A stretch of DNA of 64,000 nt from Solirubrobacter deserti (GTDB lineage: Bacteria > Actinomycetota > Thermoleophilia > Solirubrobacterales > Solirubrobacteraceae), in assembly GCF_027587175.1 (NCBI RefSeq), contig NZ_JAPCID010000007.1, positions 1 through 64,000 on the forward strand. Direction: 5' to 3'. The notes under the pieces are model-generated. The model ran no database searches, had not been told where the DNA came from, and saw nothing but the letters and a program-made list of their open reading frames with translations. Positions 65 to 60,357 of this stretch are shown in pieces (position 1 is the first letter of the stretch; every line of letters starts with the position of its first letter). A program made the position numbers and the translations under genes.

Positions 65-1141
65 CTAGGTGAACGCGCCGTCGGCGAGGATCGTCTCGCC
101 GTCGGCGCTCAGCGTTCCGCCCTCGCGCAGGTCGCAGATCAGGTCCCAGTGGACGACCGAGTCGTTGGTGCCGCCCGTCTCGGGATAGGAGCGGCCGAGC
201 GCGAGGTGCACGGTGCCGCCGATCTTCTCGTCGAACAGGATCGCGCCGATCGGGCGGTCGATGCCGAAGTTGGTGCCGATGCCGAGCTCGCCCAGGTAGC
301 GCGCGCCCTCGTCGGTCGCCAGCGTCGCCTGCAGGTAGTCGTTGCCGCGCTCGGCGTGGGCGCGCACGACCCGGCCCGCGTGGAACTCCAGCGTCACGTC
401 CTCGACGACCACGCCGCGCGGGGAGGTCGGGATCGTGAACCGGATCACGCCCTCGGCGGACGTCTCGTGCGGCCCCGTGAAGACCTCGCCCGAGGGCATG
501 TTGCGCTTGCCGTCGGAGTTGATCCAGGTGCGCCCGTCCACGGTCAGGCGCAGGTTGGTGCCCTCGGCCTGGATGTGGATCTCGCGCTTGGGCGTGAGCC
601 GCTCGATCAACGCCGCCTGGAACGCGCGCAGCTCGCCCCAGGCCGCGGGCGGATCGTCATGGTCCAGGAACAGCGCGCGGGTGACGAAGTCCTCGAACTC
701 GCGCGTGCCCATGCCGGCCTGCTGCGCGGCGGCGGCCGTCGGCCACAGCGTGATCGCCCAGCGGCGGGCCAGCGCGACCTCGCGCAGGGGCGCCCGCGAG
801 CGCGCCGCGCGGGACAGGCGCGCCGGGTCGACGCCCGCCAGCGCGTTCGCGTTGTCGGTGGCCTGGATGCGCAGCGACGCGTCGATCTCCTCGGCCTCGG
901 CCAGCTCGGCGGTCGGGAAGCCGTCGAGGTGCAGGTCGCGTGCGGCATTCCAGAACACCTCGTCCGCGCCGGGCAGCGACGCCCGGATCAGTGGCCACGC
1001 GTCCCGCTCGAGGATCTCCCGCTGGAGCGCCAGCAGCAGCGGCGCGGCGAGCGTCGAGGACTGGACCAGGATCTGCTGCCCGGGCTGTACCTCGAGGCAG
1101 TAGTCGGTCAGCAGGCGGGCGAAGCCGTCGACGTGGTTCAT
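65..1141 (-). CDS. M29-family aminopeptidase
   Basis: A 358-residue cytosolic metallo-exopeptidase of the M29 (AmpS/thermophilic aminopeptidase) family, which removes N-terminal residues from peptides. The family layout is visible: an N-terminal domain opening with DGFARLLTDYCLEVQPGQQ, a central strand EGTNLRLTVDGR, and the C-terminal metal-site region with LGIGTNFGID, then KIGGTVHLALG and a final HWDLICD. ATG at 1141 is chosen because it overlaps the stop codon of the gene upstream (ATGA), indicating translational coupling; the open frame runs on upstream but that part has the composition of antisense DNA. Length is a little short of the usual ~370-410 residues. Family assignment is firm, peptide specificity unknown. 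Confidence 0.9.
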   Translation of the reverse strand: MNHVDGFARLLTDYCLEVQPGQQILVQSSTLAAPLLLALQREILERDAWPLIRASLPGADEVFWNAARDLHLDGFPTAELAEAEEIDASLRIQATDNANALAGVDPARLSRAARSRAPLREVALARRWAITLWPTAAAAQQAGMGTREFEDFVTRALFLDHDDPPAAWGELRAFQAALIERLTPKREIHIQAEGTNLRLTVDGRTWINSDGKRNMPSGEVFTGPHETSAEGVIRFTIPTSPRGVVVEDVTLEFHAGRVVRAHAERGNDYLQATLATDEGARYLGELGIGTNFGIDRPIGAILFDEKIGGTVHLALGRSYPETGGTNDSVVHWDLICDLREGGTLSADGETILADGAFT

Positions 1142-1479
1142 GGTGCCTGCATCTCCGGGAAGTGCTCGGCCAGGTGCTCGCGCAGCACGCCGCGGATCCA
1201 CACGCGCTCGTCCTGGGAGGCGAAGCGGTAGCGGGCCAGCAGCTCCTTCTGCTTGGTGATCGGGGGCGTGCCGGCGATCTCCCAGCGCACGACGAGGCGC
1301 TCGAACAGGAACTCGACGGAGCGGTGCCAGGCGTCCTCCTGGCTGAGGATGTTCCCGCTGACGACCTCCGCGTACTGCAGCCGCGTGGCGGGCGTCATCG
1401 ACCCGCGCAGCACCAGGGCGGAGCCGTTCGCGTCGCTGTAGGAGAACTCGGGCGCCTTCAGGCGGGCCTTCTTCGCCAT
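1138..1479 (-). CDS. Conserved hypothetical protein coupled to M29 aminopeptidase
   Basis: A 113-residue soluble protein that I do not recognise. It begins MAKKARLKAPEFSYSDANG and is rich in charged and aromatic residues, with a predicted mixed N-terminal part and a helical C-terminal half (HRSVEFLFERLVVRWEI, then RVWIRGVLREHLAEHF). No signal peptide or membrane segment. Its TGA stop overlaps the ATG of the aminopeptidase gene, so the two are almost certainly co-translated. The divergent neighbour starts at 1549, leaving about 70 bp for promoters. Codon-position GC bias and the tight coupling support it as a real gene; function unknown. Confidence 0.7.
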   Translation of the reverse strand: MAKKARLKAPEFSYSDANGSALVLRGSMTPATRLQYAEVVSGNILSQEDAWHRSVEFLFERLVVRWEIAGTPPITKQKELLARYRFASQDERVWIRGVLREHLAEHFPEMQAP

Positions 1480-1548
1480 CGCCTCGACGGTAGCGTCTCT
1501 GCGGTGCGCAAGCCGACTCGACCGCGTGAGGTGGGCCGGGGGGAACGC

Positions 1549-2487
1549 GTGCTGCCGGGCGTCTGGCGGCTGCGGCTCCCGCTCGACCTCCCTGGCGTCC
1601 CCCACGTCAACGCCTGGGCCTTGAAGGCCGGCCGCGGCCTCGTGCTCGTGGACACCGGCCTGCACGACCGCGGCACGATGGGCCACCTCGAGCAGGCGCT
1701 CGACCGCACCGGCCACAGCGTGCGCGACATCGACCTGATCGTCATCACGCACGCCCACATCGACCACTGCGGCCAGGCGCCGCCGCTCGCCCGGCGCGCC
1801 CGCTGCGAGGTGTGGATGCACCCGAAGTGGCGGTTGCACGCGCCCGACGACCTGGACAAGACGATCGAGATCGCGCTGCTGTCGGGCGTCCCGGAGGGGC
1901 CGCTGCGGCGCTGGGCCGAGGCGCGCCGCGGGATGGGCACGGGCCAGGCGGGCGAGCTGTACGCCGACAAGGACCTCGTTCCCGGCGTGACGGTCGACAC
2001 CGACGCCGGCACCTGGAACGTGATCGAGACGCCCGGCCACGCGCCTTCGCACGTGTGCCTGCATCAGCCCGAGCAGCGCCTGCTGATCACGGGCGATCAT
2101 CTGCTCGGCCGCGTGTCGCAGTACTTCGACGTCGGCTACACGCCCGATCCGGTGGGGGAGTTCCTCGAGTCGCTGACCGTCGTCGAGCGCCTGGACGCGC
2201 GGCTCGCCCTCGCCGGCCACGCCCGCCCGTTCACGGACATCCAGGCCCATATCGACGCCAACCGCGCCGAGGTCCGCCGGCGCGTGGACGCGACCCGCGC
2301 CGCGCTCGCGGACGGCCCGAAGAGCGCCTACGAGGTCGCGCGCACGGTCTACGGCGAGGCGTTCAACGAGCTGATGGCGAGCTGGCTGATGACGATGACG
2401 CGCGCCTGGTTGGTGCACCTCCAGCGCTTGGGGGAGGTCCTCAACGATGGTGCAGATCCCGTGCAGCACTGGGAGCTCGCCTCGTAG
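1549..2487 (+). CDS. Metallo-beta-lactamase-fold hydrolase
   Basis: A 312-residue MBL-fold metal hydrolase. The HxHxDH signature appears as H68-A-H70-I-D72-H73 in THAHIDHCG, followed by the other zinc ligands in ETPGHAPSHVCLH, ITGDH and LAGHARPF. GTG 1549 is chosen because a G-rich Shine-Dalgarno-like run (GGGGGGAA) lies 4-5 nt before it and translation then begins directly at the family's opening strand (LPGVWRLRLPLDLPGVPHVNA); GTG codons at 1504 and 1531 are alternatives. The C-terminal 70 residues form a helical extension typical of the stand-alone bacterial group. Substrate unknown. Its TAG stop is also the start of the metF -10 box. Confidence 0.85.
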   Translation: MLPGVWRLRLPLDLPGVPHVNAWALKAGRGLVLVDTGLHDRGTMGHLEQALDRTGHSVRDIDLIVITHAHIDHCGQAPPLARRARCEVWMHPKWRLHAPDDLDKTIEIALLSGVPEGPLRRWAEARRGMGTGQAGELYADKDLVPGVTVDTDAGTWNVIETPGHAPSHVCLHQPEQRLLITGDHLLGRVSQYFDVGYTPDPVGEFLESLTVVERLDARLALAGHARPFTDIQAHIDANRAEVRRRVDATRAALADGPKSAYEVARTVYGEAFNELMASWLMTMTRAWLVHLQRLGEVLNDGADPVQHWELAS

Positions 2488-19447: not shown

Positions 19448-20593
19448 TCACACCGTCGATGCTCCAGCGCACCCCAACGCCGCCGCGATAAGCGCCAGCG
19501 CCACCTCGGCCCGGGGCCGCAACGAGGCCTCCAGCACGAACTCGTCCGGGTTGTGCGCCTTGCCGCCGCGCGGCCCGAGCCCGTCGACGGTGAGCGGGAT
19601 GGACGCCGCGAAGTGGCTCGCGTCGGACGCGCCGCCACGGGCCGCGGGCGCGATCCGGCGGCCGAGCAGGGCGGTCGCGCGCTTCAGCAGCGGCTCGGTG
19701 GCCGCCTCGGCCTGCATGCCCGGCCAGCGGCGGATCAGCTCCGCCTCCAGCCGCACGCCCTCGTGCTCGGCCGGGATGTGGGTGAGGACGTCCTCGATCG
19801 CGTCGAGCTCGTCCGCACGGACGTCGCAGAACAGCTCGCCGTGGCCGGGGACGACGTTGAACGCTTCGCCGGAGCGCAGGATCGTCGGCACGGCGGTCAG
19901 GTGCGAAGGGCCGGCGGGCGCATGACGCGAAGCGACGGCCTGCGCGGCCACGGCCAGCGCTAGCAGCGCGTTGGCGCCGCGGTCCGGCGCCGAGCCCGAG
20001 TGCGCGCTGCGCCCGTGCGCGGTGACGTGGATCGTGCCCGCGGCCTTGCGGCGCACGACGACGCCCTCGGCGCCGTCACGCAGCTCGCCCGCCTCGAAGC
20101 ACAGGCACGCGTCGAAGCCGGCGAAGCGCGGCACGTGGCTGAAGTCGGCGGTCCGCCACTCCTCGTCGCACACGAGCAACAGCGCGAGCTCGGCGTACAG
20201 CTCGGGCCGGGCCGCGAAGGCGCGCAGCGCGCCGAGCGCGAGCACGTTCCCGCCCTTCATGTCGACGGCGCCGGAGCCGACGAGCTGCTCGCCGACGCGC
20301 GCCAGCGGCTTGTGCTCGGCGTGGGACACGACCGTGTCGTTGTGGCCGACGAGCAGGACCCGGCGCGTGCCTGTGCCGGGAAGGCGGATCACGAGATCCT
20401 CGGCGTGGCTCGGGCTCGAGCACGGCACGCGCTCGACCTTCGCCTCGTCGGGAGCGAGCGCCGCGCACAGCGACGCGCACTCGTTCGCCCCGTGCACGTC
20501 GCCCGACGGTGAGGAGACGGCGACCAGCGCCTCGAGCTCCCGCGGCGCCCGGCGCGCGATGTCCGCCGCCGCCCGCTCGATCCACGCATCCAT
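19448..20593 (-). CDS. M20-family metallopeptidase (DapE-like)
   Basis: A 381-residue zinc hydrolase of the M20/DapE family. Metal and catalytic positions are visible: VLLVGHNDTVV, SGAVDMKGG, the catalytic pair in CDEEWRT, CFEAGE, and the C-terminal GGASDASHFA. A dimerisation domain lies between (GRSAHSGSAPDRGANAL). Members remove acyl groups from amino acids or dipeptides (for example succinyl-diaminopimelate, acetylornithine); the exact substrate is not determinable. ATG 20593 lies 7 nt after a TAGCCT box and is divergent from fpg, sharing one compact promoter. Confidence 0.88.
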   Translation of the reverse strand: MDAWIERAAADIARRAPRELEALVAVSSPSGDVHGANECASLCAALAPDEAKVERVPCSSPSHAEDLVIRLPGTGTRRVLLVGHNDTVVSHAEHKPLARVGEQLVGSGAVDMKGGNVLALGALRAFAARPELYAELALLLVCDEEWRTADFSHVPRFAGFDACLCFEAGELRDGAEGVVVRRKAAGTIHVTAHGRSAHSGSAPDRGANALLALAVAAQAVASRHAPAGPSHLTAVPTILRSGEAFNVVPGHGELFCDVRADELDAIEDVLTHIPAEHEGVRLEAELIRRWPGMQAEAATEPLLKRATALLGRRIAPAARGGASDASHFAASIPLTVDGLGPRGGKAHNPDEFVLEASLRPRAEVALALIAAALGCAGASTV

Positions 20594-20600
20594 CGCGTTC

Positions 20601-20610
20601 AGGCTAACGT
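20601..20610. promoter_or_regulatory. Bidirectional leaderless promoter (fpg / M20 peptidase)
   Basis: AGGCTAACGT contains TAGCCT on the minus strand and TAACGT on the plus strand, sharing the central TA. Each box is followed by exactly 7 nt and a start codon: ATG 20593 leftward and GTG 20618 rightward. Confidence 0.6.
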
Positions 20611-20617
20611 GGACGCC

Positions 20618-21478
20618 GTGCCTGAGCTGCCCGAGATGGAGATCACCGCTCGCCGGCTGGCCGAGGCCCTTCCCGGGGAGACGATCGAGTCCGTGCTCAC
20701 GCCGGGGCTCAACGTCCTCAAGACGTTCGACCCGCCGCTGAGCGCGCTGGACGGGGCCCGCTTCACCGGTGTGCGCCGGCGCGGCAAGCTGCTGGCGCTC
20801 GAGGTCGACACGGACTCGCACGGCCCGCTCACGCTGCTGGTGCACCTGATGAGCGCCGGCCGGCTGATGCTCTACGACAAGCGCGGCTCGCTGCGCGACA
20901 AGACCTCACGCGTACTCGTTCGGTTGCCCGGCGACCGCGAGCTGCGCCTGCGCGAGTTCGGCACCAAGCAGGCCGCCTGGGTGAAGCTGCTGACGCTGGA
21001 TGGGCTGGAAGCCGAGCCCGCGCTCAAGTCGCTGGGCCCCGAGGCGTGGCCGGACCCGCCCGCCGACCTGAGCGAGCTCCTCAGCGTCCCGCGGCCGCTG
21101 CACTCGCTGCTGCGCGACCAGCAGGTGATCGCAGGAATCGGGCGCACGTGGGTCGATGAGATCCTGCATCAGGCCAAGCTCTCGCCGTTCAAGCGGGGGG
21201 ACGACCTCTCCGCCGCCGAGGCGAAGGCGCTGCGCAAGGCGATGGTCGGCGAGCTGCAGCGCGTCCTGGACGTCTACGAGGAGAAGGTCGCGCTCCCGCT
21301 GCCGGAGAAGTTCCCGAAGCCGACCAGGGTCCACGCGCACCAGGGCGAGCCGTGCCCGCGCTGCGAGACGGTGCTCGAGGCGGTCTTCTACGAGGACTAC
21401 GTCATGAGCTACTGCCCGCACTGCCAGACCGAGGGCCGGATCCTCAAGGACCGCCGCCTGTCGCGTTTGTTGAAGTAG
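20618..21478 (+). CDS. Formamidopyrimidine-DNA glycosylase / endonuclease VIII family
   Basis: A 286-residue base-excision repair enzyme of the Fpg/Nei family that removes oxidised bases and nicks the backbone. The start is fixed by the requirement for an N-terminal proline nucleophile: GTG 20618 gives (M)PELPEMEITARRL, whereas GTG 20609 would bury it. E3 is present, the H2TH region lies around LRDQQVIAGIGRTWVDEILH, and the C-terminal zinc finger has CPRC and CPHC. Whether it is Fpg (8-oxoG) or a Nei-like member is uncertain; the lesion-recognition loop cannot be judged by eye. Confidence 0.93.
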   Translation: MPELPEMEITARRLAEALPGETIESVLTPGLNVLKTFDPPLSALDGARFTGVRRRGKLLALEVDTDSHGPLTLLVHLMSAGRLMLYDKRGSLRDKTSRVLVRLPGDRELRLREFGTKQAAWVKLLTLDGLEAEPALKSLGPEAWPDPPADLSELLSVPRPLHSLLRDQQVIAGIGRTWVDEILHQAKLSPFKRGDDLSAAEAKALRKAMVGELQRVLDVYEEKVALPLPEKFPKPTRVHAHQGEPCPRCETVLEAVFYEDYVMSYCPHCQTEGRILKDRRLSRLLK

Positions 21479-23566: not shown

Positions 23567-27076
<3,510 letters not shown>

Positions 27077-27080
27077 GTCA

Positions 27081-27086
27081 TAGCCT
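27081..27086 (+). promoter_or_regulatory. bcp -10 element TAGCCT, leaderless type
   Basis: TAGCCT is followed by 7 nt and the ATG at 27094; no Shine-Dalgarno precedes the start codon. Confidence 0.55.
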
Positions 27087-27093
27087 CCGCTCC

Positions 27094-27564
27094 ATGCTCG
27101 AGACTGGCGCGAAGGCCCCTGACTTCACCCTGCCCGACCAGGACGGCGAAGACGTCACATTGTCGGCTCTGGCCGGCACCACGGTCGTGCTGTATTTCTA
27201 TCCGAAGGCCGATACGCCCGGCTGCACGACGCAGGCGTGCGGCATCCGCGACCACCTGCCGGACTACACGGCCGCGGGCGTGCGCGTGCTCGGCGTCTCG
27301 CCCGACCCGGTCAAGGCCGTCAAGAAGTTCCACGACAAGCAGGCGCTGAACTTCACCCTGCTGGCCGACGAGGACCACACGGTGTGCGAGGCCTACGGCG
27401 TCTGGGGCGAGAAGTCCATGTACGGCAAGACCTACATGGGCGCCAACCGCGCGACGTTCATCATCGACGCCGACGGCACGATCGTGCACGTCATCCCGAA
27501 GGTGTCGCCGAAGACGCACGACGACGAGGTCCTGAAGGCGATCGGGGAGCTTCAGCCCTCCTGA
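27094..27564 (+). CDS. bcp: Thioredoxin-dependent peroxiredoxin, Bcp/PrxQ type
   Basis: A 156-residue PrxQ-type peroxiredoxin reducing hydroperoxides with thioredoxin. The peroxidatic Cys and the resolving Cys five residues later are both present in YPKADTPGCTTQACGIRD. Other family landmarks are APDFTLPDQDG at the start and NRATFIIDADGTI near the end. Cytoplasmic. It adds to the peroxide defence of the neighbouring furA-katG. A leaderless-type -10 box precedes it. Its last 13 bp overlap the convergent lipoprotein gene. Confidence 0.95.
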   Translation: MLETGAKAPDFTLPDQDGEDVTLSALAGTTVVLYFYPKADTPGCTTQACGIRDHLPDYTAAGVRVLGVSPDPVKAVKKFHDKQALNFTLLADEDHTVCEAYGVWGEKSMYGKTYMGANRATFIIDADGTIVHVIPKVSPKTHDDEVLKAIGELQPS

Positions 27565-44224: not shown

Positions 44225-44680
44225 ATGCCTTCGGACAACGGGGCACTCGACGCGACGAACCTTCGATTGCTCGAAGAGCTCCAGCGCGACGCACGCCTCA
44301 GTCAGGCCGAGCTCGGCCGCCGCGTCGGCCTCTCCGCCCCGGCCGTCGCCGAGCGACTCGCCCGGCTCGAGCGCGACGGCACCATCACCGGCTACCGGAC
44401 CGCGGTCGACCCGCGCGCGTTCGGCTTCACGCTCGCCGCGATCATCCGCATGCGCCCCGCCCCGCGCCAGATCCCGAAGGTTGCCGAGGTCGCCCAGGCC
44501 ACGCCGGAGGTCGCCGAGTGCCACCGGGTGACCGGCGAGGACTGCTTCTACATGAAGGTCCACGTGGCGTCGGTCGAGCACCTCGAGGAGGTCATCGACC
44601 GCTTCACGCCCTACGGCCAGACGACGACGTCAATCATCCAGTCGTCGCCGGTCGTCCAGCGCGAGCTGAAGCCGGCCTGA
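44225..44680 (+). CDS. Lrp/AsnC-family transcriptional regulator
   Basis: A 151-residue regulator with an N-terminal helix-turn-helix (LDATNLRLLEELQRDARLSQ, RRVGLSAPAVAERLARLERD) and a C-terminal RAM ligand-binding domain (AAIIRMRPAPRQIPKVA, GEDCFYMKVHVASVEHLEE). Lrp proteins respond to amino acids; the divergent EamA exporter makes amino-acid export the likely target. ATG 44225 is set by the TATTCT box 7 nt upstream; an upstream ATG at 44156 in the same frame is rejected. The 3' end overlaps the convergent gene at 44630 by 51 bp. Confidence 0.93.
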   Translation: MPSDNGALDATNLRLLEELQRDARLSQAELGRRVGLSAPAVAERLARLERDGTITGYRTAVDPRAFGFTLAAIIRMRPAPRQIPKVAEVAQATPEVAECHRVTGEDCFYMKVHVASVEHLEEVIDRFTPYGQTTTSIIQSSPVVQRELKPA

Positions 44681-45073
44681 CTCGATCTCGCCCGCGAGCT
44701 CGTCGAGCAGGCGCCGGCTCGCGCGCCAGCCGACCACCTGGCGCTCCTCCAGCCACGGCCCCGACTTGGCGAACACCGTCCACGGCTTGCGCAGCACCAC
44801 GCGGGCGAAGAGCCCGAGGATCAGGCCGAGGATCAGGATCGTGAGCTCGATGGCGAGCACGACCACGTTGAAGAGCGTGACGATGAGGAACAGGATCGCG
44901 ATCGCGCCGAACACGACGAGCAGGATCGCGCCGAGGATGTCGTCGGCGGAGCCGAGGTCCGGGAACTCGAAGGAACCCGTGTCGACGCCCTCCATGCGCT
45001 TGCGGCGCGGCAGCCAGCGGCGGCCGAGCGTCCACCGGGACCCGTCGGGAGCTGTGGCCTTACGCCGGAACAC
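44630..45073 (-). CDS. Membrane protein of unknown function
   Basis: A 147-residue protein: a basic, soluble N-terminal ~42 residues (RRKATAPDGSRWTLGRRWLP), two adjacent hydrophobic segments (AILLVVFGAIAILFLIVTLF and VVLAIELTILILGLILGLF) and a soluble C-terminal part WTVFAKSGPWLEERQVVGWR that looks helical. Similar layouts occur in small actinobacterial membrane proteins of unknown role. GTG 45073 is chosen with a TACCCT box 9 nt upstream. It shares a compact bidirectional promoter with the MFS gene. Confidence 0.7.
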   Translation of the reverse strand: MFRRKATAPDGSRWTLGRRWLPRRKRMEGVDTGSFEFPDLGSADDILGAILLVVFGAIAILFLIVTLFNVVVLAIELTILILGLILGLFARVVLRKPWTVFAKSGPWLEERQVVGWRASRRLLDELAGEIESGRLQLALDDRRRLDD

Positions 45074-45082
45074 GAGCGTGGC

Positions 45083-45092
45083 AGGGTAGGGA
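45083..45092. promoter_or_regulatory. Bidirectional leaderless promoter (membrane protein / MFS)
   Basis: AGGGTAGGGA holds TACCCT on the minus strand (9 nt before GTG 45073) and TAGGGA on the plus strand (7 nt before GTG 45100). The two boxes share the central TA. Confidence 0.5.
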
Positions 45093-59024: not shown

Positions 59025-59756
59025 ATGCACCGCATGCCCGCCGCCACCATCGCCCTCGTCGGAGACCGCTCGCCCACCGTTCGCGCCCACGGACGAATCC
59101 CGCTGCTGATCGACACGCTCCGCCGTCGCGACGGGATCGTGCTCGACCCGTATTGGATTCCGTCCACCGAGGCCGAGGACCTGGACCGCTTCGACGGCAT
59201 CTGGGTCGTGCCCGGCAGCCCCTACACCGACCGCGAGAAGGTCATCGACGCCGTCGGCACCGCGCGCGCGAATGGGATCCCGTTCCTGGGCACGTGCGGC
59301 GGCTTCCAGCACGCGATCATCCACCTCGCCCGTGAGCTGGCGAACCTCCCCGAGGCCAACCACGCCGAGTACGGCTCGACCGGCACCGACGTCATCGTGC
59401 CGCTGGAGTGCTCGCTCGTCGGCCACGAGGGGGTGATCCGCTACACGCCCGGCACGCTGATCGCGAAGATCGCGGGCGTCGACCAGCGCCTGGAGCGCTA
59501 CCACTGCTCGTACGGGATCGCGCCCGAGTTCGTCACGCGGCTCGAGTCCGCCGGCGTCGTGTTCGGGGCCCACGACGAGGACGGCGCGCCGCGCGCGCTG
59601 GAGCTCCCGGGCCGCCCGTTCTTCCTGGGCACCCTCTTCCAGCCGGAGCTCGCGGGCGACGGCAGCCGCGCGCACCCGGTGATCCGCGCGTTCGCGGAGG
59701 CGGTCGTCAGCCGCCGCGAGCGTGGAACAGATACTCGGGCAGCGCAGCTCGTGTGA
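59025..59756 (+). CDS. Class I glutamine-amidotransferase-like protein (CTP-synthase GATase type) with His-to-Gln change
   Basis: A 243-residue protein resembling the glutaminase part of CTP synthase. The nucleophile C91 is present in PFLGTCGGFQHAII, but the usual catalytic histidine of FHPE is replaced by Gln206 in TLFQPELAG (Glu208 kept). This matches a stand-alone group related to the CTP synthase C-terminal domain, not CTP synthase itself. It may act on another amide or not hydrolyse glutamine at all. ATG 59025 is used; ATG 59034 is also possible. The last 50 bp overlap the convergent CBS gene. Confidence 0.78.
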   Translation: MHRMPAATIALVGDRSPTVRAHGRIPLLIDTLRRRDGIVLDPYWIPSTEAEDLDRFDGIWVVPGSPYTDREKVIDAVGTARANGIPFLGTCGGFQHAIIHLARELANLPEANHAEYGSTGTDVIVPLECSLVGHEGVIRYTPGTLIAKIAGVDQRLERYHCSYGIAPEFVTRLESAGVVFGAHDEDGAPRALELPGRPFFLGTLFQPELAGDGSRAHPVIRAFAEAVVSRRERGTDTRAAQLV

Positions 59757-60144
59757 CGCGCGCCGACAGCTCCGGCTCCAGCCCGCGCGAGGACAGGTCG
59801 TCGAGCGTGACGACGCCGACCACGGAGCCGCCGCTGACCACGACGAGCCGCCGCACGGCGTGGCGGATCATCCGCTGGCTGGCCTCCTCGACCTCCATGT
59901 CGGGCTCGGCCTTGATCACGGGCGAGGAGGCGTGCTCGGCCGCGCGGTCCTCTCCCGTGCGGCCCTCGGCCACGACCGACAGCGCGATGTCGCGGTCCGT
60001 GATGAACCCGACGGGCGCGCCGCCGTCGCGCACGAGCACGACGGAGCCCACGTTGCGCTCGCGCATGAGCTCCGCGATCTCGCGCACGGGCGCGTCAGGG
60101 TTCGCCGTCACCACCGACTCCGTCATCACCTCGCCGACCAGCAT
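59707..60144 (-). CDS. CBS-domain pair protein
   Basis: A 145-residue protein consisting of two CBS motifs: MLVGEVMTESVVTANPDAPV and VLVRDGGAPVGFITDRDIAL, then SSPVIKAEPDMEVEEASQRM and LVVVSGGSVVGVVTLDDLSS. CBS pairs bind adenine nucleotides and usually regulate a partner; alone it may be an energy sensor. ATG 60144 follows a TACACT box by 8 nt and shares a bidirectional promoter with the small gene at 60172. The final ~17 residues overlap the GATase-like gene end. Confidence 0.85.
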   Translation of the reverse strand: MLVGEVMTESVVTANPDAPVREIAELMRERNVGSVVLVRDGGAPVGFITDRDIALSVVAEGRTGEDRAAEHASSPVIKAEPDMEVEEASQRMIRHAVRRLVVVSGGSVVGVVTLDDLSSRGLEPELSARVTRAALPEYLFHARGG

Positions 60145-60152
60145 CGGCGGCG

Positions 60153-60162
60153 AGTGTACCCT
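60153..60162. promoter_or_regulatory. Bidirectional leaderless promoter (CBS / small gene)
   Basis: AGTGTACCCT contains TACACT on the minus strand (8 nt before ATG 60144) and TACCCT on the plus strand (9 nt before GTG 60172), sharing the central TA. Confidence 0.55.
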
Positions 60163-60171
60163 TGCGCGATC

Positions 60172-60357
60172 GTGGCCTACAGAAGCGCGGCACAGCTCCG
60201 CAACACCCGCCGCATCGAGGCGCTGATCAAGCTCGCGGCGCCCGCGCTCAACGTCGTCCTGTACGCGGGTGACAAGGCGTCCCGGATCGCCGGCCGCGAT
60301 CAACTCGGCCCGGAGCCGGCGCGCCGAGTCGGGCTTCCCCCGAGCATGCGCGACTAG
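60172..60357 (+). CDS. Small hypothetical protein
   Basis: A 61-residue basic protein. The N-terminal part RNTRRIEALIKLAAPALNVV, LYAGDKASR has an amphipathic helix that may associate with the membrane; the rest is polar. Its TAG stop begins the -10 box of the next gene. No recognised family. GTG 60172 is chosen for the TACCCT box 9 nt upstream. Plausible but needs comparison with relatives. Confidence 0.5.
   Translation: MAYRSAAQLRNTRRIEALIKLAAPALNVVLYAGDKASRIAGRDQLGPEPARRVGLPPSMRD

Follow-up and report, generated by a model that had tools for sequence, protein, structure and literature searches.

A symmetric core between fpg and an M20 peptidase gene

How can two divergent genes be expressed when their start codons lie only 24 nt apart? 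The question is raised by fpg and its neighbour in the soil bacterium Solirubrobacter deserti, within a 64,000-nt stretch of contig NZ_JAPCID010000007.1 (the window, to which all window coordinates refer). fpg, of the Fapy-DNA glycosylase family (20618–21478, plus strand; Pfam Fapy_DNA_glyco and H2TH), begins with GTG at 20618, and a gene for an M20 family peptidase (19448–20593, minus strand) begins with ATG at 20593. Between them lies a core at 20601–20610, AGGCTAACGT, which reads TANNNT on each strand with one TA in common. TAACGT (20605–20610, plus strand), 7 nt from the GTG, is the putative −10 box of fpg, and TAGCCT (20601–20606, minus strand), 7 nt from the ATG, that of the peptidase gene; T20605 and A20606 belong to both. 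The 7 + 7 nt symmetry of this locus had been pointed out in a first-pass annotation, and we confirm it. Our analysis indicates that each intact site of this kind is very probably a minimal bidirectional promoter for two leaderless or nearly leaderless mRNAs, an arrangement that recurs and is conserved in Solirubrobacteraceae.

The GTG start of fpg is fixed by the conserved N terminus (V/M)-PELPE, Pro2 of Fpg being the catalytic residue. The start of the M20 peptidase is aligned across species, with the N terminus (M/V)D-x-WI. The window Fpg is identical (100%) to that of Solirubrobacter sp. CPCC 204708 and about 86–91% identical to those of named species; the Pfam search gave no zf-FPG_IleRS match in it.

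The first-pass annotation placed two-way cores at 20601–20610, 45083–45092 and 60153–60162. All three coordinates are correct; the first and third cores stand, the second does not (see below), and a further clean case at 1487–1496 had been overlooked. At 60153–60162 (AGTGTACCCT), TANNNT again occurs on each strand with one common TA: TACACT (60153–60158, minus strand) is 8 nt from ATG 60144 of a CBS-domain gene (59707–60144, minus strand; Pfam match), and TACCCT (60157–60162, plus strand) is 9 nt from GTG 60172 of a 61-aa open reading frame (ORF; 60172–60357, plus strand). At 1487–1496 (ACGGTAGCGT), TACCGT (1487–1492, minus strand) lies 7 nt from ATG 1479 of a 113-aa ORF (1138–1479, minus strand), and TAGCGT (1491–1496, plus strand) lies 7 nt from GTG 1504 of a gene for a metallo-beta-lactamase-fold protein (1504–2487, plus strand; Pfam match). 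At all three intact sites −12T and −11A of both strands coincide in a single TA step, the shared −10 arrangement of bidirectional promoters.

A leaderless signature upstream of called genes

We called genes by codon usage, without promoter motifs, in 1.97 Mb (71% GC) of the 7.09-Mb genome, using a home-made caller seeded with codon-position composition; an earlier caller trained on ORF length fell into wrong frames and was dropped. In this sample TANNNT peaks 6–10 nt before called starts, where it precedes 65, 77, 69, 41 and 33 genes at the successive positions against about 3–5 per position elsewhere. TA...T boxes in this interval total 291 against a background of 26.2, and TA...A, TA...G and TA...C show no such peak. 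The box is commonest in divergent genes (21%). No −35-like signal was found in the 35 bases upstream of the box of leaderless genes. At the window sites the gap is 6–9 nt, which puts TANNNT at roughly the 12-bp distance from the start codon that is described for leaderless genes. The 6–10 nt spacing suggests that the mRNAs are leaderless or nearly so, with leaders of 0–3 nt possible; the earlier proposal of minimal two-way promoters for two leaderless genes is supported by the sequence, with 'leaderless' to be taken in this wider sense.

The same signature decides the case at 45083–45092 (AGGGTAGGGA), which reads TANNNT on the minus strand only. The claimed second box, TAGGGA (45087–45092, plus strand), is not a −10 box by the genome's own standard: TA...A is not enriched 6–10 nt before starts (29 seen, background 22.8). 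In other Solirubrobacter the minus-strand box is kept in four of five species and a plus-strand TANNNT in none of the five. We therefore regard this site as a one-way promoter, in which TACCCT (45083–45088, minus strand), 9 nt from GTG 45073, serves the gene of a 147-aa protein (44630–45073, minus strand). Lacking TANNNT on both strands, it does not belong to the two-way class.

Shared cores exceed chance in the whole genome

A genome-wide comparison with chance, proposed alongside the first-pass annotation, gave a result far from chance level. Searching for CAY-N7-9-ANNNTANNNT-N7-9-RTG, we found 29 matches in the whole genome; the same core with start codons at 17–19 nt, 10 nt further away, gave 2 matches and the reversed pattern 5. 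The 1.97-Mb sample contains 88 ANNNTANNNT cores, 12 of them with start codons 7–9 nt away on both sides, whereas 19 other distance bins average 0.42. This sample is partly biased, four contigs having been picked for containing matches, and the unbiased whole-genome counts are the better figure. Among 297 called divergent pairs in the sample, 35 have TANNNT on both sides and five have a common TA; control boxes of the same composition with their letters moved gave 0–4 of 297. Raw counts with scrambled boxes were discarded as misleading, because any palindromic overlap yields a chance excess, and were replaced by these gene-aware counts and shifted-start controls.

Both boxes are conserved across species

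Orthologous sites were located by protein homology, not by the pattern. Both boxes are kept in 13 of 14 such sites (fpg/M20, 4/4; CBS, 5/5; 1487, 4/5). Between fpg and the M20 gene, the cores of S. phytolaccae, S. soli, S. pratensis and S. taibaiensis are AGGCTAGTGT, AGGCTAACGT, AGGCTAACGT and ACGTTAACGT, respectively; the ANNNTANNNT form is kept in all four, and the inner bases and spacers vary, the M20 spacing reaching 11 nt in S. pratensis. All five of the other species compared retain the CBS site, as AGGGTACACT or ATTGTAGACT in the reading direction of the CBS gene. The single loss is at the 1487 site of S. pratensis, where the divergent gene and its box are both gone and the other box stays. 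Outside the genus, in other Solirubrobacterales, fpg has its own TANNNT 5–10 nt upstream in 30 of 43 cases (background 0.4), but just 3 of the 43 have the second box.

We then counted matches against the shifted-start control across lineages; the totals are sums of tables copied by hand. The genus Solirubrobacter has 160 against 22 (7.3-fold), the rest of Solirubrobacteraceae 288 against 36 (8-fold) and the rest of the order 127 against 39 (3.3-fold). The rest of the phylum sample has no overall excess (2324 against 2313). One other family of the phylum, labelled f29, has 63 against 10 in six genomes (G092, G126, G148, G169, G177 and G197), and a few others have a weaker excess (for example f31, 77 against 41). 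The distribution indicates a habit of Solirubrobacteraceae and of one or more further families that does not extend to Actinomycetota in general. The suggestion of a lineage habit, made from three window cases, is thereby borne out by the 7–8-fold excess in genus and family, by the conservation of both boxes and by the plausible gene pairs described next.

No evident functional link between the paired genes

Of the 29 genome-wide matches, at least 22 are flanked on both sides by a plausible gene, the two being divergent; up to seven are without a convincing second gene. Many have Pfam domains on both sides. Named by domain, the pairs include DHDPS/glycosyltransferase, rhodanese/ALO, methyltransferase/glycosyltransferase, carbonic anhydrase/cupin, hexapeptide/MeaB, metallo-beta-lactamase/glyoxalase, TPP enzyme/AbrB, HhH-GPD/BKACE, helicase/ABC-F-like, methylmalonyl-CoA mutase/SelA (SelA-like), luciferase-like/SMP-30, glyoxalase/diacylglycerol kinase, NUDIX/alanyl-tRNA synthetase, a second Fpg/HpcH aldolase and enoyl-CoA hydratase/ribonucleotide-reductase-like, the latter match being below the curated cut-off. 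One gene, at L258, had a negative coding score, yet its sequence reads as a thioredoxin-like protein, and the call was corrected by eye. No functional relation between the partners is evident, and this speaks against co-regulation of pathways as the reason for the arrangement.

Two of these pairs deserve separate mention. alaS, presumably an essential gene, seems to rely on a core that it shares with the NUDIX gene (L103:6474–6502, contig C29). The second Fpg (MPELPEAERARAQ...; L255:4746–5486, minus strand, contig C129) has a canonical FPG zinc finger and a start likewise fixed by a PELPE N terminus; its shared-TA core lies opposite the HpcH/HpaI aldolase gene.

Relation to known bidirectional and leaderless promoters

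Bidirectional promoters of E. coli and Salmonella were described by Warman, Grainger and colleagues (PMC12825309, PMC10268837), with start sites reported 18, 10 or 23 bp apart (PMC12825309). They resemble the present sites in that a near-symmetric −10 element drives both directions. At 18 bp, positions −7 and −11 coincide (PMC10268837); by our own arithmetic, 23 bp corresponds to coincidence of −11 and −12, the shared-TA geometry found here. The first-pass annotation found it striking that such boxes serve two leaderless genes in so little DNA; the shared-TA geometry itself is not new, being implied by the published 23-bp class. The cores described here are ANNNTANNNT, not the TANNNTA in which −7T and −11A coincide. 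E. coli favours the 18-bp class, whereas in Solirubrobacter the shared-TA geometry dominates; here, moreover, each direction would give an mRNA, apparently leaderless, from a promoter that fits entirely between two start codons. The geometry predicts start sites 23–29 bp apart, bidirectional promoters being defined by divergent starts at a distance of 7–25 bp. The sites match the 23-bp class in geometry and are best placed beside it as working alike, full membership depending on start-site data.

Leaderless genes of Actinobacteria likewise have TANNNT near −10, some 12 bp ahead of the start codon, and those of M. tuberculosis have no conserved −35 motif; they are described as single promoters (PMC3160421, PMC3898074). 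The available text of PMC3898074 also reports closely juxtaposed divergent promoters in M. tuberculosis, for example at the adjacent prpD and Rv1129c, both leaderless, and does not describe one common −10 core for them. The EcoRV and CfrBI restriction–modification systems likewise have two divergent promoters with overlapping polymerase sites, but are single regulated systems, and the EcoRV C transcript is not leaderless (PMC5333194). No account of this combination came up in literature searches on leaderless bidirectional promoters, although dual leaderless cases may have been described earlier. On the best reading, the Solirubrobacter sites would be a compact and unusually clear variant of known two-way promoters, adapted to two (nearly) leaderless mRNAs.

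A probable single promoter core for two mRNAs

We infer the following mechanism from the geometry of the sites. RNA polymerase with a sigma-A type (housekeeping) factor would recognise TANNNT on either strand and, because both boxes have the −12/−11 TA step in common, would be bound in only one of the two directions at a time. Melting of the shared box would place the transcription start at, or within about 0–3 nt of, the start codon on the chosen strand. Two leaderless or nearly leaderless mRNAs could then arise from an intergenic region of 24–28 nt that has no room for a Shine–Dalgarno leader, translation presumably beginning at or near the 5′ end, and one core would express two adjacent, functionally unrelated divergent genes. 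For tested E. coli bidirectional promoters, PMC12825309 reports basal activity too low for competition, the two directions becoming competitive once one side is activated; by analogy, competition would be expected here too only upon activation of one side.

Several points weigh against this mechanism. Gene starts from the home-made caller are approximate, and spacings of 8–9 nt could leave leaders of 1–3 nt. Since a shared TA spares two A/T bases in a genome of 71% GC, part of the excess may reflect ease of origin, not function. Selection acting on either gene on its own might likewise maintain such pairs, without any advantage from sharing.

The strongest alternative is that two ordinary leaderless promoters were joined by genome compaction, TA sharing being the cheapest fit without functional coupling. 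We regard this as a serious contender, somewhat short of an even chance; it addresses the reason for the arrangement and does not conflict with the bidirectional mechanism, mutually exclusive binding being the same physical outcome either way. The unrelated functions of the pairs, the two A/T positions saved in a GC-rich genome and the occurrence of double-TANNNT pairs at many other spacings all suit it. Against it, the equally cheap TANNNTA of the 18-bp class is far rarer: in the genus it is only weakly enriched, with 27 matches versus 11 for shifted starts, while the shared TA has 160 versus 22 (Fisher p = 0.013). Avoidance of A just after TANNNT was considered as a cause of this rarity and dropped (3.1% against 5.6% genome-wide, p = 0.13).

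It is improbable that only one box per site is a promoter, the other being a chance TANNNT whose gene is expressed otherwise. This is the case at 45083, where the minus-strand box alone is kept, and could apply to the up to seven matches without a convincing second gene; it does not account for the 29 matches against 2 with shifted starts, nor for a second box that persists in 13 of 14 orthologous sites and is lost where the divergent gene is lost. The symmetry of the core and its position between divergent genes would also suit an operator for a dimeric regulator in place of two −10 boxes, but the inner three bases vary freely between sites and orthologues, the sole constant features being A, T, A, T and the distance to the starts, which makes an operator very unlikely. 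A chance pattern from reading degenerate motifs, to which four specified bases and the lack of overall excess across the rest of the phylum might point, has all the matched controls against it, is refuted for this lineage by the distance-bin and shifted-start counts, and retains a negligible probability.

A broader proposal can be made, tentatively and with the balance rather against it. In Solirubrobacteraceae, and independently in one other family, the shared-TA promoter may be a standard 24–28 nt element for two leaderless mRNAs, without room for a leader or a classical operator, whose sole built-in control, even where an essential gene such as alaS is involved, would be that the two orientations of a single polymerase site compete. 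Each genome would offer some twenty natural promoters, nearly free of additional sequence, for testing how polymerase chooses direction at a symmetric site, and the same set could be used to ask if one promoter can serve two mRNAs that are both essential or housekeeping. For bidirectional promoters in general, the lineage provides many coding–coding pairs and a preferred geometry unlike that of E. coli. In practical terms, a ANNNTANNNT core 6–9 nt from two starts is a good aid to start-codon annotation in Solirubrobacteraceae.

Further genes and sites

Among the window proteins, the Fpg, M20, MFS, CBS and metallo-beta-lactamase assignments have Pfam support, and no Pfam match was obtained for the 147-, 113- and 61-aa proteins. 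The 61-aa ORF divergent to the CBS gene (60172–60357, plus strand) begins VAYRSAAQLRNTRRIEALIKLAAPALNVVLYAG... and is kept in at least three other species, its protein being conserved in the three where it was translated. It is likely a small protein gene, easily overlooked in annotation.

Elsewhere in the genome, the plus side of a core at L247:4995–5064 (contig C61) leads into a 16-codon ORF ending within the start of a helix-turn-helix-like gene, and similar flanks (CAATTCCGGTG) are present in other species; the ORF could be a leader peptide or short leader. A core at L105:7937–7946 (contig C37) also has similar matches in other species. Its plus side is without a gene, the next gene being on the minus strand, and a non-coding or antisense RNA may be transcribed from the second box. 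Finally, the ATG starts of a divergent pair in the window lie only 17 nt apart at 27076–27094, tighter than fpg/M20, with TAGCCT 7 nt before the plus-strand start as the single visible TANNNT box.
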